From NCBI RefSeq assembly GCF_019931195.1, contig NZ_JAIOUO010000006.1:310001-374000 (forward strand): DNA of 64,000 nucleotides, in the 5' to 3' direction. The notes below the pieces were generated by a model. It was not told where the DNA came from and ran no database searches. It was given only the letters and a program-made list of their open reading frames with translations. The DNA is from Marinobacter sp. F4216. GTDB lineage: Bacteria; Pseudomonadota; Gammaproteobacteria; Pseudomonadales; Oleiphilaceae. Position numbers and translations under genes: made by a program. This document shows, one piece after another, positions 29,560 to 44,310 of the stretch; position 1 is the stretch's first letter, and each line of letters opens with the position of its first letter.

Positions 29560-29814
29560 TCAGGCGAGCGAGATACGATAACGAATAACCCCGGCATCTT
29601 CCTCGCGGATCCACTCTATCCGGTGGCCGGTGAGCTCGCACAAGGCCTGTAAGTCCTTTCGGCCACTGGGATCGTCGGCGAGAAACTCAACCTGGGTGCC
29701 CCGGGGAAGATCCTGAGTGCGCTTCTTGAAGCGCAGGATGGGAAGGGGGCACACCAGACCCACCGCATCGATCTGGTGTACCGCGGATTGATCAGTCAAG
29801 TCGAACACTCGCAC
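29560..29814 (-). CDS. TusA-family sulfur carrier in the formate dehydrogenase operon
   Basis: An 84-residue TusA/SirA-fold protein with the active-site motif VCPLPIL (Cys22-Pro-x-Pro). The family takes up persulfide sulfur on that Cys and hands it on. The likely start is GTG 29814, which overlaps the end of the 41-residue membrane peptide gene by 23 bp. The ribosome binding site is weak, so a nearby downstream start is possible. It is the last gene of the fdh run. FdhD, encoded 14 kb away in the same super-locus, needs sulfur to sulfurate the FDH cofactor. A dedicated sulfur-relay role is a natural inference, not shown. Confidence 0.8.
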   Translation of the reverse strand: MRVFDLTDQSAVHQIDAVGLVCPLPILRFKKRTQDLPRGTQVEFLADDPSGRKDLQALCELTGHRIEWIREEDAGVIRYRISLA

Positions 29815-29917
29815 TGCTGGTTTGCTCGGCTACGGACCAGCCGAACTGGTTCAGTACCATGGGTGCTGCAAAGGCGATCACCAGGGCAGCGACAAATGCG
29901 GAAAACATAACTTTCAC
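29792..29917 (-). CDS. 41-residue single-helix membrane peptide coupled to fdhC
   Basis: Starts at GTG 29917, overlapping the fdhC stop by GTGA, with a strong GGGGG site 8 bases upstream. It reads V-K-V-M-F-S-A-F-V-A-A-L-V-I-A-F-A-A-P-M followed by a polar tail ending in RLD. One membrane helix fills the first half. The tight coupling, good ribosome binding site and position between fdhC and the TusA gene argue that it is real. I do not recognise a family. It may be a small accessory or stabilising subunit of the membrane-bound FDH, like other one-helix subunits of respiratory enzymes. Confidence 0.65.
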   Translation of the reverse strand: MKVMFSAFVAALVIAFAAPMVLNQFGWSVAEQTSSASVRLD

Positions 29918-31086
29918 GATGAATTCCCCCTGTCCTGTTTGGATTCCACCTCGGCCACCCACAAGTCGTGGTGCTGGCGGGCCCATTCCCGGTCCACCTG
30001 GCCGGTGCCCATGGCATCGAACGCACCCTCCATGCCAACCGAGCCGATGTAGATGTGGGCAATAATAGCCACCATCATGGCGAACGCGACAATCGAGTGC
30101 CAGATATTGGCGTATTGCATCTCCTCATGCGGGGCCAGTACGGTGGGCAAATCCGTTCCGAAGATGCTGTTGATGACGTTGAAGGTCTTGGCGAACATCG
30201 GCATCTCGAACGGGAACAACATGGAAAGACCTGACAAGGAGACAGACAGGCCTAGTAGCATCACGGTCCAGAAGATAATCTTCTGTCCGGCATTAAACTT
30301 CCTCGCCGACGGGTGGGACTTGGTAAAGATTCCCCCACCGGCTTTCAGCCACTGCCAGTCCAGCTTGCTGGGGATGTTGTGCACCACCCACATGCAGAAG
30401 GTCATCACCAGGCCCAGCATGAAGGCCCAGGCAATGTTGTTGTGCAGCCATTTGGAGCCGTTCGCCAGCGGGGCGAAGGCCTCTTTGCCAATGACCGGAA
30501 TCAGGAAGCTGCGCCCCATGAGGGTGATCAGTCCTGTGATCGCCAGTGCGATGAACGAGCCTGCCAGTAGCCAGTGACCGAATCGTTCGATCGCCTTGAA
30601 TCGCTCGACGGTGGTGCCGGCTGGGCCACCGTCGATCATGATTTTGCCACGCACAAAGTAGAAAATGATCAGCAGCGCAATAACGGCCAGGAGTGCGCCG
30701 CCGCCATAGCTGATCAACGGTCCCTCACGCAGCTTGTACCAGGGCATGCCGGCGTCCTGAATCAGAACGCTGTTGGCGGGTCCGGGTGACTGAATGGAGG
30801 GATCGATCTTGTTATAGCGGATAGAGCGCCAGATGTCGGCGTCAGAGCGACCGCCCAGCGTACCGAGCGATTCGCTGATCGGCGCCGCACTGTCAGGGTT
30901 TCCCAGATTTTCAGAGCGGAAGGACTCGTCAATTTTAAGCTGTTCCTGACGAGCCATAATGTCTTCAAGGGTTTGCGCGCCGCCGGTCGAGGAGCGGTCA
31001 ACCGAAGCGGACTCCTGAGCCAGCGCAGGGGGACAGATCAGTGTCGTCAGTAACAGAATGACGGCACCCAGCAGTTTTGAATTCAT
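29914..31086 (-). CDS. fdhC: Formate dehydrogenase cytochrome b subunit FdhC
   Basis: A 390-residue protein. A signal peptide (VILLLTTLICPPALA) and about 110 mainly polar residues precede four or more membrane helices of the FdnI/FdoI cytochrome b type. Haem-ligating His residues are likely in ERFGHWLLAG, SKWLHNNIAW, VVHNIP and AFAMMVAIIAHIYIG. It anchors FdhAB to the outer face of the inner membrane and passes electrons to quinone. The long N-terminal extension is normal for the FDH3-type gamma subunit found in Shewanella-like operons. It is followed by a coupled 41-residue peptide gene. Confidence 0.92.
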   Translation of the reverse strand: MNSKLLGAVILLLTTLICPPALAQESASVDRSSTGGAQTLEDIMARQEQLKIDESFRSENLGNPDSAAPISESLGTLGGRSDADIWRSIRYNKIDPSIQSPGPANSVLIQDAGMPWYKLREGPLISYGGGALLAVIALLIIFYFVRGKIMIDGGPAGTTVERFKAIERFGHWLLAGSFIALAITGLITLMGRSFLIPVIGKEAFAPLANGSKWLHNNIAWAFMLGLVMTFCMWVVHNIPSKLDWQWLKAGGGIFTKSHPSARKFNAGQKIIFWTVMLLGLSVSLSGLSMLFPFEMPMFAKTFNVINSIFGTDLPTVLAPHEEMQYANIWHSIVAFAMMVAIIAHIYIGSVGMEGAFDAMGTGQVDREWARQHHDLWVAEVESKQDRGNSS

Positions 31087-31175: not shown

Positions 31176-31784
31176 TTATGCACCCTTCTTCTCGTAAGCT
31201 GTGCCCCATCCCCAAGCGCCGGAACCGAAGCCCCGGTTTACGACACGCTGGCGATAGATGTCCGCTACCTCGTTGCCGTCTCCGGCCAGCAGTGCTTTGG
31301 TCGAGCACATCTCGGCGCAGAGTGGCAGCTTGCCCTCGGCAATACGGTTGCGTCCGTACTTGGAGAACTCTGCGTCAGAGTTGTCCTCTTCGGGGCCCCC
31401 GGCACAGAACGTGCATTTGTCCATCTTACCCCGGCTGCCAAAGTTCCCCGCCTGGGGGAACTGAGGAGCGCCGAACGGGCAGGCATAGAAGCAATACCCG
31501 CAGCCAATGCACAGATCCTTGGAGTGCAACACCACCCCGTCTTCGGTTTGGTAGAAGCAATCCACCGGGCAAACGGCCATACAGGGCGCGTCTGAACAGT
31601 GCATGCAGGCTACCGAGATCGAACGCTCGCCAGGTTTACCATCCTCGATGGTGACGACGCGTCGACGGTTGATGCCCCAGGGGACCTCGTTCTCGTTTTT
31701 ACAGGCCGTGACGCACGCATTGCATTCGATGCAGCGTTCGGCATCGCACAGGAATTTCGCTCGTGCTTGTCCTTCAAGTGCCAT
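31176..31784 (-). CDS. fdhB: Formate dehydrogenase iron-sulfur subunit FdhB
   Basis: A 202-residue ferredoxin-like subunit with four [4Fe-4S] clusters: CIECNACVTACKNENEVPWG, CMHCSDAPCMAVCPVDCFY, CIGCGYCFYACPFGAPQFP and the KCTFC / CAEMCSTKALL set. It is the FDH3-type beta subunit, shorter than E. coli FdnH and lacking its C-terminal membrane helix. It carries electrons from the catalytic FdhA to FdhC. It has no signal of its own, so it is probably co-exported with FdhA by the Tat system. Gap to fdhA is 14 bp. Confidence 0.93.
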   Translation of the reverse strand: MALEGQARAKFLCDAERCIECNACVTACKNENEVPWGINRRRVVTIEDGKPGERSISVACMHCSDAPCMAVCPVDCFYQTEDGVVLHSKDLCIGCGYCFYACPFGAPQFPQAGNFGSRGKMDKCTFCAGGPEEDNSDAEFSKYGRNRIAEGKLPLCAEMCSTKALLAGDGNEVADIYRQRVVNRGFGSGAWGWGTAYEKKGA

Positions 31785-31798
31785 GGTTTACCCCTCCA

Positions 31799-34684
31799 TT
31801 ATGCCGGCGCGATCGAACACAGGGTGGCCTTGGTCTCTTGCATCTGCGTGACCGAGTCATACCCGTATGTTTGAACGGTGTTAGTGGATTCACCCAGAAC
31901 AATGGGATCAGCGCCCTCGGGATATTTCTCCCTCAGGTCCTTGCCTTCCAGGTGCCCGCCGAAGTGGAATGGCATGAAGGCAACGCCTTCGCCAACCCGC
32001 TCGGTCACCATGGCCTTGACCTTGATGCGCGCGCCCTCAGGGCCGGACACCCAGACGTCGTTGCCGTCCCGAATGTTCAGGTTGTTCGCATCCCGCGGGT
32101 TCACCTCGATGAACATCTCCTGCTGCAACTCGGCCAGCCACGGGTTTGAACGGGTCTCATCACCACCACCTTCGTACTCAACCAGACGGCCGGACGTCAG
32201 AATGATGGGGTATTCCTTGCTGAAGTCCTTCTTCTGAATGGACTCGTACATGGTCGGTACGCGCCAGAAGGTTTTGTCCTCGTAGGTCGGGTAATCCTCA
32301 ACCAGATCCCGGCGCGAGGTGTACAGGGGTTCACGGTGAATGGGGACCGGATCCGGGAAGTTCCAGACCACGGCGCGCGCCTTGGCGTTACCGAAGGGCG
32401 CACATTCGTGCTTGATGGCCACCCGCTGGATACCGCCCGAAAGATCGGTCTTCCAGTTGGTTTCCGGCCCAGCCACCGCTTCAATGGCTGAGCGCTCCTC
32501 GTCCGTCAGGTCGCCATCCCAGCCCAGATCCATCAGCATCTGCATGGTAAATTCCGGGTAGCCGTCCTTGATCTCGGAATTCTTCGAGTAAACACCTTCG
32601 GCCAGCAGGTTCTCGCCGTCACGCTCGACACCAAACCGGGCCCGGAAGGTGAGACCACCCTCGGATACCGGCATCGACATATCGTAGAGATTCGGCGTAC
32701 CCGGGTGATTCATTTCCGGAGTGCCCCAGCAAGGCCATGGCATACCATAGACATCACCATCGCAGGGACCGCCAGCGGCTCGCAGGGTGGTCTTGTCGAA
32801 GTGATGTTGGTACTTCATGTGCTTCTGCAGGCGCTCGGGCGACTGACCGGTGTAGCCGATGGTCCACATGCCCCGGTTGAATTCCCGGGTGATGTCCTCA
32901 ATCGACGGTTCGTCACCCTCAATGGCAATGTTCCGGAACATGCGATCGGTGAAGCCGAACTTGTCCGCGAACAGCTTCATGATCTCGTGGTCAACCTTCG
33001 AGTCGAACAGCGGATCAATCACCTTCTCACGCCACTGTAGCGAGCGGTTGGAGGCAGTGACCGAACCGTAGGTCTCGAACTGGGTGGTTGTTGGTAGCAG
33101 ATAAGCGCCGTCTTTGCGGTCATGCAACACCGCGGATACGGTCGGGAAGGGGTCCACAACGACCAGCAGGTCGAGTTTTTCCATGGCCTCCTTCATTTCC
33201 AGCATCCGTGTCTGGGAGTTGGGCGCATGGCCCCACAGCACCATGGCCCGGGTGTTATCGGGCTGCTCCAGGTTTTCCTTGGCTTCCAGAACCCCATCGA
33301 TCCAGCGGGAAACCGGAATGCCTTTCTCGTTCATCATGGGTTTGGACTTGCCGCCCCGGTCGAGTGTGGCGAAGCGACCTTTCAGCCAATCCAGGTCTTC
33401 TTCCCAGACCCGTGCCCAGTGCGCCCAGGAACCGGCGGCCAGACCGTAGTAGCCGGGCAGGGTATCGGCCAGAACGCCAAGGTCGGTTGCGCCCTGCACG
33501 TTGTCGTGGCCACGGAAGATGTTGGTGCCTCCGCCGGTAACGCCCATGTTACCCAGTGCCAACTGCAGGATGCAGTAGGCCCGGGTGTTGTTGTTGCCGT
33601 TGGTGTGCTGGGTACCCCCCATGCACCAGATGACCGTGCCCGGGCGGTTGTTGGCCAGGGTGCGGGCAACACGCTCAAGCTGCGCTCCCGGGGCTCCGGT
33701 AACCCGCTCTACTTCTTCAGGATTCCAGCGCTTCACTTCTTCCCGGATGTCGTCCATGCCCCACACACGGGTGCGGATGAACTCTTTGTCTTCCCATCCG
33801 TTCTCGAAGATGTGCCAGAGAATGCCCCAGACCAGCGCGACGTCACTGCCCGGCCGGAAACGCACAAACTCATCCGCATGGGCGGCGGTGCGGGTAAAGC
33901 GCGGATCGCAGACGATCAGCGGCGCATTGTTTTCTTCCTTGGCTTTCAGGATATGCAGCAACGACACCGGGTGTGCTTCCGCAGGGTTACCCCCGATCAG
34001 GAAGATTGCCTTCGACTTGTGGATGTCGTTGTAGGAGTTGGTCATGGCCCCGTAGCCCCAGGTGTTGGCTACGCCGGCGACCGTGGTTGAGTGGCAGATG
34101 CGGGCCTGGTGATCTACGTTGTTGGTGCCCCAGTAGGCGGCGAACTTGCGGTAGAGGTAGGCTTGTTCGTTGTTGAACTTGGCGCTGCCCAGCCAGTAGA
34201 CCGAATCAGGGCCGCTCTCCTCGCGGATTTGCAGCATCTTGTCGCCGATCTCGTTGATCGCCTCGTCCCAGGAAATCTTCTGCCATTCCCCGTTGACCAT
34301 TTTCATCGGGCTCTTCAGGCGACGATCCCCATGAGCGTGCTCCCGTACTGAAGCACCTTTTGCACAATGGGCCCCCAGATTAAACGGGCTGTCCCAGCCG
34401 GGCTCCTGTCCGGTCCAGACGCCATTTTGAACCTCGGCTTCGACCGTGCAGCCAACCGAACAGTGAGTACATACCGATTTCCTGACTTCGGTTTTGCCTC
34501 CGGAATCCGATGGCGTAGCAGCCTCAACGCGTTTGCTCGTCAGTGACAAAGCGGCCAAACCACCCACGGTGACGCCTGAGGCCGCCAGAAATCCCCGACG
34601 GTCCATCGTCTTTGCCGCGAGGGATGAAAGTAAAGATCCTGCACGGGGGCCTTTCGCTACCCCGTTGGTCTTCTTCCGTAACAT
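31799..34684 (-). CDS. fdhA: Periplasmic formate dehydrogenase catalytic subunit FdhA
   Basis: A 961-residue molybdopterin oxidoreductase. Start ATG 34684 has AGGA about 8 bases upstream. A twin-arginine signal (MDRRGFLAAS, Arg29-Arg30) sits behind a 26-residue basic extension. The N-terminal [4Fe-4S] cluster is C72-x2-C75-x3-C79-x27-C107. The metal ligand is Cys197 in ICHSTTV, with the FDH-conserved His198; it is Cys and not selenocysteine, as the codon is TGC. Two bis-MGD-binding regions are complete. It oxidises formate to carbon dioxide. With TupABC in the same super-locus, tungsten is the likely metal (inference); molybdenum is not excluded. Confidence 0.94.
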   Translation of the reverse strand: MLRKKTNGVAKGPRAGSLLSSLAAKTMDRRGFLAASGVTVGGLAALSLTSKRVEAATPSDSGGKTEVRKSVCTHCSVGCTVEAEVQNGVWTGQEPGWDSPFNLGAHCAKGASVREHAHGDRRLKSPMKMVNGEWQKISWDEAINEIGDKMLQIREESGPDSVYWLGSAKFNNEQAYLYRKFAAYWGTNNVDHQARICHSTTVAGVANTWGYGAMTNSYNDIHKSKAIFLIGGNPAEAHPVSLLHILKAKEENNAPLIVCDPRFTRTAAHADEFVRFRPGSDVALVWGILWHIFENGWEDKEFIRTRVWGMDDIREEVKRWNPEEVERVTGAPGAQLERVARTLANNRPGTVIWCMGGTQHTNGNNNTRAYCILQLALGNMGVTGGGTNIFRGHDNVQGATDLGVLADTLPGYYGLAAGSWAHWARVWEEDLDWLKGRFATLDRGGKSKPMMNEKGIPVSRWIDGVLEAKENLEQPDNTRAMVLWGHAPNSQTRMLEMKEAMEKLDLLVVVDPFPTVSAVLHDRKDGAYLLPTTTQFETYGSVTASNRSLQWREKVIDPLFDSKVDHEIMKLFADKFGFTDRMFRNIAIEGDEPSIEDITREFNRGMWTIGYTGQSPERLQKHMKYQHHFDKTTLRAAGGPCDGDVYGMPWPCWGTPEMNHPGTPNLYDMSMPVSEGGLTFRARFGVERDGENLLAEGVYSKNSEIKDGYPEFTMQMLMDLGWDGDLTDEERSAIEAVAGPETNWKTDLSGGIQRVAIKHECAPFGNAKARAVVWNFPDPVPIHREPLYTSRRDLVEDYPTYEDKTFWRVPTMYESIQKKDFSKEYPIILTSGRLVEYEGGGDETRSNPWLAELQQEMFIEVNPRDANNLNIRDGNDVWVSGPEGARIKVKAMVTERVGEGVAFMPFHFGGHLEGKDLREKYPEGADPIVLGESTNTVQTYGYDSVTQMQETKATLCSIAPA

Positions 34685-34769: not shown

Positions 34770-34958
34770 TTAAAAGCGAGCCGATTCGAAATATTTACGT
34801 GTGTGTTCAGTGTCACGTAAGCCACGGCTTTTCGGGGCGTCGTTGACGACCTGGGCGGCTGCGTTTGGTGCGACGGCCATGGCAACGGCAGCCGGAGCTG
34901 CGGATGCGGCCATCAGCAAGAAACGGCGACGACTGTTCTCACCTTGTTGTTTGTCCAT
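34770..34958 (-). CDS. FdhX: small Tat-signal protein of the formate dehydrogenase operon
   Basis: A 62-residue protein with a twin-arginine signal (SRRRFLLMAASAAPAAVAMA), then about 30 polar residues ending RKYFESARF. GGAGG precedes the start at ideal spacing. The same small protein sits just upstream of fdhA in Shewanella-type FDH operons and is treated as a formate dehydrogenase accessory protein or small subunit. Its function is not established. It lies 85 bp before fdhA and 41 bp after the chaperone gene. Confidence 0.85.
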   Translation of the reverse strand: MDKQQGENSRRRFLLMAASAAPAAVAMAVAPNAAAQVVNDAPKSRGLRDTEHTRKYFESARF

Positions 34959-34999: not shown

Positions 35000-35638
35000 T
35001 CATTGCATTGCAAAGGCGCCAGCCTCCACTTCCATGAACGCCTTCCCCAGCGAACCGACCGGGGCATAGAAGACGGAAGCCTTGGCGTTCTCTAAATCGG
35101 TAAAAAACAACGCTGCCCACTTGGCCAGGTGGGCGTCATAAAAGGCTTTCTGTGAGGGTAAGTCACTGTCGCACAGGTACTCACCGGTAATGATGCCCGC
35201 CATGATTTCGCACAGCGTGCTGATATGGTCTTCAGGTTCTTTGACTCCGCTGCTCGACTTGATGCCCCGGGTCATCAGATCGGTCCGCAAATTTGCAAGG
35301 GGTTTTTCGTTCAAAAAGCCGGTCAGGTAGTAGCTGGCGTAGGGCAGAAGTTCGCCACGACCGACTCCGACAAACAGGCTGTTGTATTCCCGTTCGACAT
35401 CACCGGGTTCGGTGCGTTCCGCAAGCACCGCCAGATTTTTGAGGGCAGATCCCAAAGGCGTGTCATCACCACGCAGGAAGGCCAAGCCTTGCAGCAGGTC
35501 AGCCGACGGTGGGCCATCGAGCAGGGAACTGAGTAACTGGTACATCTGGGCACGTGCGCGATCTTCCTCACTGATCGAGCGAGGGCACTGAGCTTCAGCC
35601 GTGTTGGTCAAAGTTACATCCTTTGAAATCGTGTTCAT
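35000..35638 (-). CDS. TorD/DmsD-like redox enzyme maturation chaperone (FdhT-like)
   Basis: A 212-residue, all-alpha cytosolic protein of the TorD family. It shows the typical segments YQLLSSLLDGPPS, EREYNSLFVGVGRGELLPYASYYLTGFLNEKPLA and HISTLCEIMAGIITGE, followed by FYDAHLAKWAALFFTDLENA. Chaperones of this class bind the Tat signal of FdhA and hold it until the cofactor is inserted. Its gene is directly upstream of fdhX-fdhA, matching the FdhT position in related operons. It is expected to serve FdhA, and possibly FdhX. Confidence 0.87.
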   Translation of the reverse strand: MNTISKDVTLTNTAEAQCPRSISEEDRARAQMYQLLSSLLDGPPSADLLQGLAFLRGDDTPLGSALKNLAVLAERTEPGDVEREYNSLFVGVGRGELLPYASYYLTGFLNEKPLANLRTDLMTRGIKSSSGVKEPEDHISTLCEIMAGIITGEYLCDSDLPSQKAFYDAHLAKWAALFFTDLENAKASVFYAPVGSLGKAFMEVEAGAFAMQ

Positions 35639-35706: not shown

Positions 35707-36354
35707 CTAATCGAAACGCATCCGCGGACGGTAGCGCAGGGTGGACTGCGCCTCGTTTTCAGATGCGTCCTCTGAGTCGTAGGGTTGCGGATCGATCAGC
35801 TGCACCATGGCCGGTTCAGGCTCTGACTTTGGTTCCGGTTTTTTAGGGAGAGGTTCAGTGGGGCTCACCCGCGAAACCTGATCGGCCGACTCGGAGACGT
35901 CACTCGGTTGATCATGTAGGACGCTGGCCGGCTCATCGGCGGGTTTGTCTCTCCTTGCGGATTTATCGAAGTAACCCTGGCCCACCTTGTAGAGGGTTTT
36001 AAATCCGCTGGTTACCGCAGCGGCGTTGGTGTAGTCCTCATCGTAGTCATTCAGTCCGTCCAGAACCGCCAGTACCGGATTGGAGCGCCAGAGCGAGCGA
36101 AGCGCCCTGCGGCGGAGGAATTCCGGAATTTCCTTGCGCATGAAACCGGTAATGTCGGTACCCAGTTCAATGGCATCCGGGTCCGGCAGGTCGTACTTGG
36201 CCAACAGCTCACGCTCGGACAGTGACTCATTAACAGCGAGCTCTTGTTCTTCGTGGGAGGGTTGGAATTCATCGGCTGCAGCGGGGGGAAGTTCCGCATC
36301 CTGACGAGCTTCGGTTTTCTTCCGCGACCAGCGCTCAAAACGTGACTCGGTCAT
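35707..36354 (-). CDS. DUF3306 protein of the formate dehydrogenase operon
   Basis: A 215-residue, highly charged protein starting MTESRFERWSRKKTEARQ, the typical opening of DUF3306. Residues 90-130 (LRSLWRSNPVLAVLDGLNDYDEDYT) are the conserved core; the remainder is low-complexity and rich in Pro, Glu and Ser. Its start overlaps the DUF3305 stop by one base (TGATG), so the two are probably translated together. The family tracks with FDH operons and is of unknown function. No membrane helix or metal motif is seen. Confidence 0.82.
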   Translation of the reverse strand: MTESRFERWSRKKTEARQDAELPPAAADEFQPSHEEQELAVNESLSERELLAKYDLPDPDAIELGTDITGFMRKEIPEFLRRRALRSLWRSNPVLAVLDGLNDYDEDYTNAAAVTSGFKTLYKVGQGYFDKSARRDKPADEPASVLHDQPSDVSESADQVSRVSPTEPLPKKPEPKSEPEPAMVQLIDPQPYDSEDASENEAQSTLRYRPRMRFD

Positions 36355-36932
36355 CAGTGAACCCTCGGCTTCTTGATGTTGGAGGGCGCTCGGTAAACAT
36401 CGCTTTCCTGCCGGATACGGGCATCACCCTTGCCATCCTCGTTACCATCAATTCGCTGCTTGTCACGACGGCGCTTCTTGAAAGGCTCTTCGACATAGTG
36501 CATGTCGATGAATTCCTTGATCCAGGCCGCCATGGACTCGGGGATGGGAACCGCCTCCACGATGCTTTCGCCACTGTCCAGAGCATCCTGTGCCTCGTAG
36601 GCGCTGGCGGTAATGGTGCTGACAAACCAGCCGGATGGGGATTGGCGGCTCTCGTCGCGGTCCATGATCACCCACACTGAAGGCACTTTCATGTTCAGGG
36701 AAATCAGGTAGGCCTCGACATCCGCACGGAACAGTTCCATGTCCACTGTGCCCGCGTGGTAATCAACCGTATCGCCGTCCCGAATCATCTCTTTCCAGAA
36801 TGCCTCCGGCGCGCCAGGTATAACCGCTACCGGCTTCCAGATTTCTCGCGCCCACTGGGTTACCCCCGGCGAGCGTCGAACGACGGCTCCGACTTTCAGT
36901 TCGCGTTTCCAGTTTTCGATACGACGGCTCAT
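36354..36932 (-). CDS. DUF3305 protein of the formate dehydrogenase operon
   Basis: A 192-residue protein beginning MSRRIENWKRELKVGAVVRR. The central KPVAVIPGAPEAFWKEM, FRADVEAYLISLNMKVPSVWVIM and TASAYEAQDALDSGE are the conserved DUF3305 pieces. The C-terminus is very basic (KKRRRDKQR) and polar. It is first in the minus-strand fdh run and is coupled to DUF3306. Both families occur beside the divergent Fe-S/Mrp/ligase-like gene set in other bacteria. Function is unknown; it may help cofactor insertion or enzyme assembly. Confidence 0.82.
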   Translation of the reverse strand: MSRRIENWKRELKVGAVVRRSPGVTQWAREIWKPVAVIPGAPEAFWKEMIRDGDTVDYHAGTVDMELFRADVEAYLISLNMKVPSVWVIMDRDESRQSPSGWFVSTITASAYEAQDALDSGESIVEAVPIPESMAAWIKEFIDMHYVEEPFKKRRRDKQRIDGNEDGKGDARIRQESDVYRAPSNIKKPRVH

Positions 36933-39074: not shown

Positions 39075-39920
39075 ATGGTTCAATACACCGAGGTTGGTAA
39101 AGACAACCTGATCGGTACCGACGCCCCACGGCCACAGGATAAAAATCCCCAAGGGATCGACCGCATTATTGCCATTGCCTCCGGCAAGGGTGGCGTTGGC
39201 AAATCCACCGTATCGTCTAATCTGGCGGTGGCACTGGCTTCCAAGGGGCTGAAGGTTGGCCTGCTGGATGCCGACGTTTACGGGCCGAGCCAGCCGCGGA
39301 TGCTGGGGGTGTCCGGCCGCCCGTCCAGCCCCGATGGCCATACCATCCTGCCTTTGCGGAATCATGGTGTGACCCTGATGTCCCTTGGCCTGATGGCTCC
39401 GGATGATGAAGCGATTGTCTGGCGCGGTCCGATGCTGATGGGGGCGTTGCAGCAGATGATGAACCAGGTGGATTGGGGCCGGTTGGATGTGTTGCTGGTG
39501 GACCTTCCCCCGGGTACCGGGGATGTGCAGATGACCCTGAGCCAGAAGTTTCATGTGGCGGGCGCGGTGGTGGTCTCAACGCCCCAGGACATCGCCCTGA
39601 TGGACGCCCGCAAGGGCATTGATATGTTCAAGCGGATGGAAGTACCGCTGTTTGGCCTGATCGAGAATATGGCGTCCTTCGTCTGCGACGGTTGCGGCAA
39701 GCAGCACTATCCCTTTGGCTCCGGCGGCGCCCGGGCCGAGGCGGAAAAGCTGGGCGCGCCGTTTCTCGGGGACATCCCGCTCGATCTGGATATCCGAATT
39801 GGCTCCGACGGGGGCGTTCCCATCGTGGTGTCCAAACCGGAAAGCCCGCAGGCCCAGGCCTTTCAGCGCATCGCCGACGAAATCATCCATTCCGATACCT
39901 ACGCCCGGGCCATCCTATGA
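39075..39920 (+). CDS. Mrp/NBP35-family Fe-S cluster carrier ATPase
   Basis: A 281-residue P-loop ATPase. The deviant Walker A is SGKGGVGKST (from residue 36), followed by DADVYGPSQPRML, DLPPGTGD and the C-terminal CDGC pair (in ENMASFVCDGCGKQH). The CxxC pair binds a bridging [4Fe-4S] cluster in the Mrp/ApbC/NBP35 family, which delivers clusters to target enzymes. It lies 18 bp after the ferredoxin-type gene and overlaps the ligase-like gene by ATGA. It is probably a specialised copy for FDH, distinct from the housekeeping mrp; this is inferred from location. Confidence 0.9.
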   Translation: MVQYTEVGKDNLIGTDAPRPQDKNPQGIDRIIAIASGKGGVGKSTVSSNLAVALASKGLKVGLLDADVYGPSQPRMLGVSGRPSSPDGHTILPLRNHGVTLMSLGLMAPDDEAIVWRGPMLMGALQQMMNQVDWGRLDVLLVDLPPGTGDVQMTLSQKFHVAGAVVVSTPQDIALMDARKGIDMFKRMEVPLFGLIENMASFVCDGCGKQHYPFGSGGARAEAEKLGAPFLGDIPLDLDIRIGSDGGVPIVVSKPESPQAQAFQRIADEIIHSDTYARAIL

Positions 39921-40621
39921 TCGAATCGCCCCAGTTTCCGCCGCTGTTCTCGGGTGAAGCGGTTACCAGACACACAGACCCTTTTGACAAGGCTGTAAGC
40001 CGGGCCATTGCCGGCGTGGATTCAGGCACAATTTTCTACTCTGAATCCAGTGACACTCTGCGGGCAGCACTGGTGTTGGCGCCGGAAACGCCCCTGGAAG
40101 AGGCCATTCAGGCCGTCTATGTGGCCCAGATCGGGCTGGCCGAGAGTCTGGGGGCTCTGGCGCCGCCCGAGGTGCCTGTGTATTTTCAGTGGCCCGATCG
40201 TATCAAGGTCAACGGAGCCGTGTGCGGTGGCGTTCGATTTGCCACGGATGTGTCAGATCCCCAGGCCCACCCTAACTGGCTGGTGATTGGCATTGAGGTG
40301 CCGTTTTTGCCTTCGGGTGATGAGCCGGGAGAAAACCCGAACCAAACCTGTCTGTACTTCGAGGGTTGTGGGGAAATCACTCCCATGGCGTTGCTGGAAA
40401 GCTGGTCCAAGCACACGTTACTGTGGCTGACCTATTACATGGACAGTGGTTTCCAGCGGGTCCATGACGAGTGGCGGCCAAGATGTGACACCCTGGGTAA
40501 AATGATTGAGCAGCCACGGCCCGGTGTCTTTGTTGGTCTGGACGAAAAAGGCCGGATGCTGTTGCGTGAGGGTGTTATGACCGAAACCGTTAGCCTGATT
40601 GAATTCGCGGAGCGTGCATGA
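39917..40621 (+). CDS. Biotin/lipoate protein ligase-like protein lacking the usual catalytic lysine
   Basis: A 234-residue protein with the BPL/LplA fold. WPDRIKVNGAVCGGVRF (from residue 92) aligns with the BirA motif WPNDLYLQDRKLAGIL. The lysine that activates the carboxylate in BirA aligns with Val102, and Asn-Asp are changed to Asp-Arg. PNWLVIGIEVPF and PMALLESWSKHTLLWLTYYMDSGF are further family blocks, with a small C-terminal DUF4444-like region. Coupled by ATGA to both neighbours (Mrp and DUF6505). No lipoyl or biotinyl acceptor domain is encoded here. It could be a degenerate ligase used as a binding protein, or use other chemistry. Confidence 0.75.
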   Translation: MIESPQFPPLFSGEAVTRHTDPFDKAVSRAIAGVDSGTIFYSESSDTLRAALVLAPETPLEEAIQAVYVAQIGLAESLGALAPPEVPVYFQWPDRIKVNGAVCGGVRFATDVSDPQAHPNWLVIGIEVPFLPSGDEPGENPNQTCLYFEGCGEITPMALLESWSKHTLLWLTYYMDSGFQRVHDEWRPRCDTLGKMIEQPRPGVFVGLDEKGRMLLREGVMTETVSLIEFAERA

Positions 40622-41094
40622 AACTGGCCCGAACCCTGAGACTCGATATATCCGATGAGAACGTTTTTGAATTGCCTGCGGCGAGCGGTGAGTGGGCGAT
40701 TTCCGGTGGGTTTGAGTTCTCCAACTGGACCGAAGCGGACCTGATGGGCAAGGCCCGTCAGGCGTTCAGCAACGGTTGGTACAGCATCGAATCCGGCGGG
40801 CGCGCCAGTTTTGTTGGCGTCTGCCACATCACCGACGCAGAACTGGAGCAGTTGCGTCAGACCCTGGCGAAGACCTTTGTCGAGATCTATGGCGCGCCGG
40901 ACATCGATACGGCCTACCCCGTTGCCTGCGAAGAAATCGACCAGATGCGCAGCATGTGTGAAGACTTTGAAGACAACACCCTGCTTATGGTGAGCCGCGA
41001 GCTGACCGAACTGGGTGTGGAAGAGACCTACCGCTCCCGGGCGCCGCAGGATGCCTCGCTGGAAGCCTTCGCGGTGCATGGCAGTGTCGAGTGA
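40618..41094 (+). CDS. DUF6505-family protein of the FDH accessory operon
   Basis: A 158-residue soluble, acidic protein starting MKLARTLRLDISDENVFELP. Visible features are EWAISGGFEFSNW, GKARQAFSNGWYSIESGGRASFVGV and a C-terminal EEIDQMRSMCEDFEDNTLLMVSRELTE, split here into recognisable pieces. I recall it as DUF6505, a family of unknown function that travels with the ligase-like and Mrp genes. It overlaps the previous gene by ATGA and ends immediately before the converging moeA stop, with no spacer at all. No motif for catalysis was found. Confidence 0.75.
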   Translation: MKLARTLRLDISDENVFELPAASGEWAISGGFEFSNWTEADLMGKARQAFSNGWYSIESGGRASFVGVCHITDAELEQLRQTLAKTFVEIYGAPDIDTAYPVACEEIDQMRSMCEDFEDNTLLMVSRELTELGVEETYRSRAPQDASLEAFAVHGSVE

Positions 41095-43437: not shown

Positions 43438-44310
43438 CTATCCATCGTCCCGTGCGCCCTTGCGACGCATTTTTTTGTCGTCATCCGGTACCTGCGACAG
43501 GTCCTGATCAAACACCAGGCGGTGCTGGCCGCTGAGGCAGGTGAATTTCTTGCCACGCATCCGGCCGATCAGGGTCAGGCCAACCTGTTGGGCGATATCC
43601 ACACCCCAGGCGGTAAAGCCGGACCGGCTGATGAGTGTGGGAATCCCCATCAGGGCGGTCTTGATCACCATCTCGGAGGTTAGCCTGCCAGTGGTGTAAA
43701 GCACCTTATCCGCCGCCGGGATGTCGTTCAAATGCATCCAGCCGGCAATCTTGTCGACCGCGTTGTGGCGCCCGACGTCTTCCATATACGCCAGAACCTG
43801 CTGTCCGTGGCACAGGGCAGTGCCATGAATGGCACCGGTTTCCATATACAGGCTGGGGGTATGGTTAATCTTGAAGGAGAGGTCGTAGAAGGTGCTGGTG
43901 TGCACCGGTGTATCTGGCAGGGACAGCCCGTCTAGCCCGGCCATCATATCGCCAAACACCGTACCGACGGCGCAGCCCGAGGTGCGGGTTTTTTTCTGCA
44001 GTTTGTCCTCGACGTCTGTAGTTCCGGCGGTGCGTACCACCGCGACTTCCAGCTCTTCGTCGAAATCGATTCTGGTGACCTGATCGGTGTCTTTCAGCAT
44101 GCCCTGGTTCAGCAGAAATCCGAGGGCCAGGTATTCGGGGTAATCGCCAATGGTCATGGCTGTCACGATTTCCTGGCTGTTCAGGTAGATGGTCAGGGGG
44201 CGTTCTTCGATCACGCTGATGGACTTGGCCTGGCCGGTTTCATCAATCCCGGTAACCTGGCGGGACAGCCGGGGATCGGAGGGATTGGGGAGCAGGGATG
44301 AAATCGTCAT
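43438..44310 (-). CDS. fdhD: Formate dehydrogenase sulfurtransferase FdhD
   Basis: A 290-residue protein with the FdhD core: IEERPLTIYLNSQEIVTAM, RTSGCAVGTVFGD and the C-terminal VGRHNAVDKIAGW and RSGFTAWGVDIAQQVGLTLIG. FdhD takes sulfur from a desulfurase and transfers it to the bis-MGD cofactor of FDH. In E. coli FdhD the sulfur-carrying Cys121 is part of a CxxC motif. Here the same loop has only one Cys (Cys113 in SGCAVG). The gene is between tupA and mobA, linking metal uptake to cofactor sulfuration. Confidence 0.93.
   Translation of the reverse strand: MTISSLLPNPSDPRLSRQVTGIDETGQAKSISVIEERPLTIYLNSQEIVTAMTIGDYPEYLALGFLLNQGMLKDTDQVTRIDFDEELEVAVVRTAGTTDVEDKLQKKTRTSGCAVGTVFGDMMAGLDGLSLPDTPVHTSTFYDLSFKINHTPSLYMETGAIHGTALCHGQQVLAYMEDVGRHNAVDKIAGWMHLNDIPAADKVLYTTGRLTSEMVIKTALMGIPTLISRSGFTAWGVDIAQQVGLTLIGRMRGKKFTCLSGQHRLVFDQDLSQVPDDDKKMRRKGARDDG

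Follow-up and report, generated by a model that had tools for sequence, protein, structure and literature searches.

The window analysed here is a stretch of 64,000 nucleotides from Marinobacter sp. F4216. Its minus strand carries an FDH3-type formate dehydrogenase (FDH) operon, made up of genes for DUF3305 and DUF3306 proteins, a TorD-like chaperone and a TAT-target protein, then fdhA, fdhB and fdhC, and finally a short open reading frame and a TusA-like gene (Table 1). The same cluster includes fdhD, mobB and moeA, farther upstream of the fdh genes. The operon is assigned to FDH3 on the scores of FdhB and FdhC, which exceed the cut-offs of NF038355 and TIGR01583, respectively. The metal site of FdhA has cysteine, not selenocysteine, and the frame reads through. 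DUF3305 and DUF3306 are repeatedly accompanied, at FDH3 loci of genera as far apart as Marinobacter and Sinorhizobium, by a biotin/lipoate-ligase-like protein and DUF6505 (for example at 39692-41094 on the plus strand of the window and at loci L324, L326 and L332); to my knowledge, no role in FDH has been described for either of these two.

Table 1. Features of the FDH3-type operon and its surroundings, in window coordinates.
Feature	Position	Strand	Evidence
TusA-like sulfur carrier, CPLP motif	29560..29814	-	PF01206 E=4e-16
gene of the 41-aa single-helix peptide, starting at GTG and overlapping the fdhC stop as GTGA	29792..29917	-	sequence, pN/pS, profile
GGGGG ribosome-binding site of the peptide, within the 3' end of fdhC	29926..29930	-	sequence; relatives have AAGGAGG
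fdhC, cytochrome b gamma subunit	29914..31086	-	TIGR01583 133 bits vs cut-off 115.85
fdhB, FDH3 beta subunit	31176..31784	-	NF038355 347 bits vs cut-off 240
fdhA, molybdopterin catalytic subunit, twin-arginine signal	31799..34684	-	closest solved chain 9vap_A
FDH-region TAT-target small protein	34770..34958	-	TIGR02811 38 bits, under cut-off 48.45
TorD/DmsD-like chaperone	35000..35638	-	PF02613 1e-28
DUF3306 protein of the FDH operon	35707..36354	-	
DUF3305 protein of the FDH operon	36354..36932	-	
fdhD, FDH-specific cofactor sulfuration protein	43438..44310	-	PF02634 5e-74

The arrangement recalls E. coli FDH-N (FdnGHI, PDB 1KQF), in which a periplasmic alpha-beta pair sits on a cytochrome b gamma subunit, and FdhC aligns to chain 1kqf_C. 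By hydropathy, the N terminus of FdhC resembles a signal, and the protein has a periplasmic extension and one transmembrane helix more than FdnI. FdhB, which falls short of the FDH-beta model by about 80 residues, has no transmembrane helix by the same measure, in contrast to the FDH-N beta subunit (FdnH), which has one. The nearest solved relative is PDB 9VAP, an FDH3-type FdhA with FdhB, whose chains A and B match the window's FdhA (E=0) and FdhB (2e-99); the predicted model of FdhB that was meant for a fold match with 9VAP was poor (pLDDT 32). Neither a PDB chain matching the short reading frame nor an FdhC-like chain of the 9VAP type was found.

The short reading frame begins where fdhC ends. 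The fdhC gene ends in ...GGGGGAATTCATCGTGA, and the peptide, which starts at the GTG there (29917-29915), shares four bases with the fdhC stop (29916-29914). The first-pass annotation had noticed this overlap, and also the GGGGG site, which lies 8 nt upstream of the start. The frame has 41 codons and closes with a TGA whose last base is 29792; its translation is MKVMFSAFVAALVIAFAAPMVLNQFGWSVAEQTSSASVRLD. The same 4-bp overlap with fdhC, as ATGA or GTGA, occurs in 24 genomes of the genus and in one Litoricolaceae genome, that is in all 25 of those first compared, and the consensus of the peptide among them is MKVM..FVAALVIA..APVVLNQFGWSSAEQ.SS.SVRLD. In one genome (G036, C1:2880560-2881674; L055, L058), fdhC is split into two overlapping frames, through either sequencing error or decay, and the peptide and tusA genes are intact.

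The peptide is, on its pattern of substitution, under purifying selection. Among 31 Marinobacter sequences of the same genus, pN/pS is 0.23, and of the 31 codons compared the third position varies in 29, the first in 15 and the second in 15, while the remaining two reading frames of the region show the reverse pattern. A chance reading frame is ruled out by the pN/pS value and the codon-position pattern, and that selection, taken with the independent occurrence of homologues at FDH3 operons in other classes, places the peptide beyond chance. No family in Pfam or NCBIfam matches it, nor any PDB chain, and PHROGs gave weak matches only. An identity with TraQ, considered for the form of the peptide found in Azospirillum, came at 6e-4, under the cut-off, and was judged a chance match.

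Homologues of the peptide reach far outside Marinobacter. A profile of the peptide, which took in two distant copies adjoining DUF3306 in another gammaproteobacterial family, was searched against 398 genomes of the phylum at a threshold of E<=0.001. It gave 15 matches, four from the window's own genus and 11 from outside the class, and all 15 lie beside an FDH3-type operon; for the 11 outside the class, 19 kb was inspected per locus, and the peptide gene either follows fdhC or lies a gene or two beyond. In the class-level sample, three of four profile matches are at FDH3 operons, the fourth being weak (7e-4) and within a frame of 1157 codons. FDH3 occurs in 31 genomes of a 239-genome sample of the phylum, and the strict profile finds the peptide in 12 of these and in none of the others listed, on the assumption that all 239 are among the 398 genomes searched. 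A wider profile finds a convincing peptide in 14 of the sample's 16 FDH3 genomes from outside the Gammaproteobacteria; the remaining gammaproteobacterial FDH3 loci were searched, and the peptide was not found in them.

In the FDH operons of Roseobacteraceae, RefSeq labels the peptide "hypothetical protein". Its gene immediately follows fdhC in Sulfitobacter sp. D7 (WP_259950196.1) and in Pseudosulfitobacter (WP_263480987.1), whereas in Sagittula (WP_005864008.1) the preceding gene is that of a cytochrome. Longer and more divergent forms, with the ending GARVSDPG..L.GP, are found in Methylobacterium, Microvirga and at other loci. At many of these loci, the gene of a secreted WD40-repeat protein lies between fdhC and the peptide gene or close to them (L312, L313, L314, L316, L318, L319, L321 and L322), and that of Sagittula (L331:9988-11268) is annotated as a c-type cytochrome. 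Other small reading frames also accompany FDH3. Some other FDH3 lineages have, in place of the peptide, one or two lipoprotein-like frames of about 65 aa between or near fdhB and fdhC, one with the motif Y.PGVYKG..DPLL and one with EPWV (L072, L082, L083, L085, L097 and L099), and rhizobial-type loci have, downstream of fdhC on the opposite strand, a different small membrane frame with the ending ..DRSVLF.... (L326:9667-9876, L345:9688-9897, L349:9711-9914 and L351:11468-11683).

A tree of 105 FdhB sequences indicates that the peptide is the mark of one large branch of FDH3 operons. All 43 peptide loci fall in a single branch of 50 (ultrafast bootstrap 97, SH-aLRT 93), and none of the 52 entries with fdhC outside it has the peptide (Fisher p 2e-22, a value that treats related genomes as independent). 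Six members of the branch were scored as negative: L114, whose contig stops inside fdhC; L330 (Loktanella), where a divergent reading frame overlaps the end of fdhC; and four that are rhizobia-like. Several rhizobial loci within the branch gave weak or no match to the peptide.

By hydropathy and AlphaFold, the peptide consists of one helix (residues 2-24) followed by a short tail, and both this short single-helix form and the linkage to the gene of a membrane subunit are those of a one-helix respiratory subunit. Since the peptide is found at FDH3 loci without TusA, its partner should be FDH, and because it is a conserved companion of one FDH3 branch far past Marinobacter, a one-helix partner of FdhC is plausible. 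An extra helix beside FdhC is also structurally reasonable, given that FdhB has none where the FDH-N beta subunit has one, though FdhC already exceeds FdnI by a helix. Lys2, ahead of the helix, suggests an N-in/C-out topology, from which I infer that the conserved tail faces the same side as FdhA and FdhB. The closest parallels are CydX of the E. coli bd oxidase and CioY of C. jejuni CioAB, each a tiny single-helix protein encoded beside a respiratory membrane subunit; CioY, of 34 aa, emerged from translation mapping in C. jejuni and co-precipitates with CioA (PMC11955535). The likeness is one of architecture, and the present peptide differs in having FDH as its partner and in its predicted periplasmic tail with the conserved VRLD end.

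The peptide is thus probably an overlooked extra FDH subunit or an assembly factor, and I judge the first roughly twice as probable as the second. In the second case, the peptide would be a non-stoichiometric factor of assembly or quality control, binding FdhC transiently during heme insertion or the docking of FdhAB. This lesser though real possibility draws on the several lineages in which the peptide gene lies outside fdhABC (after the WD40/cytochrome gene, after DUF3306 on the other strand, or beside torD), a variability of position that is more common for accessory proteins. Against it, the peptide gene directly follows fdhC in Marinobacter, Litoricolaceae and some Roseobacteraceae, and the 4-bp coupling to fdhC in Marinobacter suits matched synthesis. 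It is highly improbable that the peptide is a mere leader whose translation couples fdhC to tusA, as the overlaps at both its ends might suggest, for selection acts at the level of its amino acids and it is conserved in other classes where no tusA follows.

The gene after the peptide encodes a protein that passes the Pfam TusA model (58.9 bits against a cut-off of 28.6), and its CPLP cysteine, Cys22, is invariant in 16 FDH-linked sequences. The first-pass annotation had given the overlap between the peptide and tusA genes as 23 bp. The overlap exists, and its length depends on the start: GTG 29814 gives 84 aa and 23 bp, whereas TTG 29799 gives 79 aa and 8 bp. An in-frame TTG at a constant position, with the 8-bp overlap, is present in 51 of 58 distinct relatives, which makes TTG 29799 the likelier start, though the Leu-Asp codons at the C terminus of the peptide could themselves account for some of this conservation.

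The TusA-like gene goes with the FDH. Of 58 related genomes, the 25 with this fdhC all give a strong match (E<1e-14), and none of the 33 that lack it does. Orthologous fdhD occurs in the same 25 genomes and in one more that is 87% complete. The cassette was also found in the named collection at 28 loci of Marinobacter/Oleiphilaceae type and Litoricolaceae type from MAGs or isolates, plus five more of Litoricolaceae type; the other TusA matches in that collection, mostly alpha- and betaproteobacterial, have no such FDH3 operon adjoining. In the window, the next gene, about 130 bp from tusA, belongs to an RND efflux system, and a scan between tusA and hlyD found neither a sigma-70 promoter nor a terminator. 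That tusA is part of this efflux operon, a conservation that the first-pass annotation had named as the observation that would speak against its reading, may be dismissed, since an HlyD/RND gene appears in none of 33 relatives within up to 6 kb downstream. The perfect co-occurrence with fdhC, together with the want of a conserved RND neighbour, indicates that the TusA gene belongs to the FDH, and co-occurrence and linkage agree with the earlier assignment of both small genes to the fdh operon. No TusA was found at the FDH3 loci examined outside Marinobacter and Litoricolaceae, so TusA is no general requirement of FDH3, and the FDH-linked gene appears to be confined to these two groups only.

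It would be possible to see in this protein a second general TusA, serving molybdopterin synthesis or tRNA thiolation and merely ending the fdh operon, as TusA proteins serve several acceptors, molybdenum cofactor synthesis among them (PMC7759655). I consider this unlikely. Its presence and absence track fdhC perfectly, and the genome has a canonical TusA besides, scoring 103.6 on the equivalog NF001423, where the FDH-linked copy reaches 44 bits against a cut-off of 78. In a rough tree of few columns, moreover, the FDH-linked proteins form a group of their own (support 88/96, the canonical clade having 99/100), which also takes in one long-branched second paralogue from Litoricolaceae.

TusA-like proteins have been tied to related processes before. 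In Pseudomonas aeruginosa, molybdenum homeostasis is influenced by one of them, PA1006 (PMC7759655). The nearest precedent is FdhU, which with FdhT serves the FDH of Campylobacter jejuni (Shaw 2012; Pryjma 2012) and which is a TusA/SirA-like protein dedicated to FDH biogenesis (cited in PMC5322559 and PMC4178425). The FDH of C. jejuni contains selenocysteine, and FdhT is the partner of FdhU there, whereas in the window FdhA has cysteine and tusA lies inside the structural operon, with no FdhT-like gene among the adjoining genes, which are those of FdhC, the peptide and the RND adaptor. By analogy, the TusA-like protein might carry selenium rather than sulfur, as has been proposed around FdhU/FdhT: by the title of Shaw 2012 (through PMC5322559), FdhTU governs selenium-dependent FDH biogenesis in C. 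jejuni, and the genome has a selD match above cut-off. The cysteine in FdhA and the lack of an adjoining FdhT-like membrane gene make this very unlikely.

For the sulfur itself, the candidate recipient is FdhD. FdhD sulfurates the FDH cofactor; in E. coli it takes sulfur straight from IscS, and not every FdhD has the CXXC motif (PMC6239281). The FdhD of the window has the motif SGCAVGT, with the first cysteine of CXXC kept and the second absent. The same single cysteine is found in all 30 aligned FDH3-type sequences, taken from genomes outside the genus sample, whether TusA is present or absent (with an E. coli sequence included for reference), and a tie between the presence of TusA and the loss of the second cysteine is thereby ruled out. 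Two other occurrences of fdhD in the genus may be recorded. A Marinobacter genome without this FDH retains fragments of an FDH-type fdhD (G005, contig C33:194922-195113), in pieces 84% and 67% identical, one of them interrupted by an internal TGA, as a remnant of the lost system; and a second, distant FdhD (30% identity) is encoded at G000, C9:182344-183042, and likewise in members of the genus without this FDH.

A cytoplasmic persulfide carrier strictly kept with an FDH and its FdhD would most economically act as a relay, and the simplest position for it would be between a cysteine desulfurase and FdhD. Counting against a simple, necessary relay, the FDH3 loci examined outside Marinobacter and Litoricolaceae lack a linked TusA and have the same single-cysteine FdhD, and in E. 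coli IscS serves FdhD with no carrier between them; the protein may alternatively deliver sulfur to molybdopterin synthesis for the FDH.

The first-pass annotation had proposed a dedicated sulfur relay from TusA to FdhD and a one-helix subunit for FdhC, neither of them, to its knowledge, described in this arrangement. Its coordinates and its observation are correct; its interpretation was half right and understated the case for the peptide. As to novelty, the TusA half has the precedent of FdhU (cited in PMC5322559 and PMC4178425), while full-text literature searches, whose coverage leaves out most subscription journals, turned up no account of the peptide; a survey of FDH-linked operons (PMC4464133) lists fdhGHI, the TAT protein, DUF3305 and DUF3306 and, in its accessible part, mentions no such peptide. 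The FDH3 set known from fdh3ABC (NF038355) comprises FdhABC, the TAT-target protein, the TorD-like chaperone, DUF3305, DUF3306 and FdhD. To this set, one branch adds the one-helix protein, and Marinobacter and Litoricolaceae add tusA too.

The explanation that best joins these observations, and which I hold with somewhat better than even confidence, is that the peptide is a one-helix membrane partner of an FDH3 branch and the TusA paralogue a lineage-specific sulfur donor for FDH maturation. The peptide would be inserted N-in/C-out next to FdhC, with its conserved 17-residue tail (FGWSSAE..S..VRLD) facing the periplasm, the site of FdhA and FdhB, and would stabilise the quinone-reducing membrane arm or aid its assembly, in the manner of CydX and CioY in bd-type oxidases. 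Marinobacter and Litoricolaceae would later have added the TusA-like protein, a cytoplasmic carrier of persulfide retained only alongside this FDH, whose sulfur would feed the maturation of the FDH cofactor before Tat export. A bolder version, tentative and rather doubtful, has the FDH3 of the whole branch, from rhizobia and roseobacters to Marinobacter, as a four-subunit enzyme with a missed subunit of 41 to 67 residues, to which Marinobacter and Litoricolaceae would add a private TusA passing sulfur to a single-cysteine FdhD.

Enzymes of the FDH3 type are widespread and oxidise formate in respiration. The TusA gene offers a natural test of the sulfur route to an FdhD without the second cysteine of the CXXC motif, a motif that is not universal (PMC6239281). 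If the peptide is a subunit, then recombinant FDH3 made from fdhABC alone would miss a conserved part, and the missing subunit, if true, would bear on the structure of these enzymes, on their coupling to quinone and on their uses in CO2 reduction.
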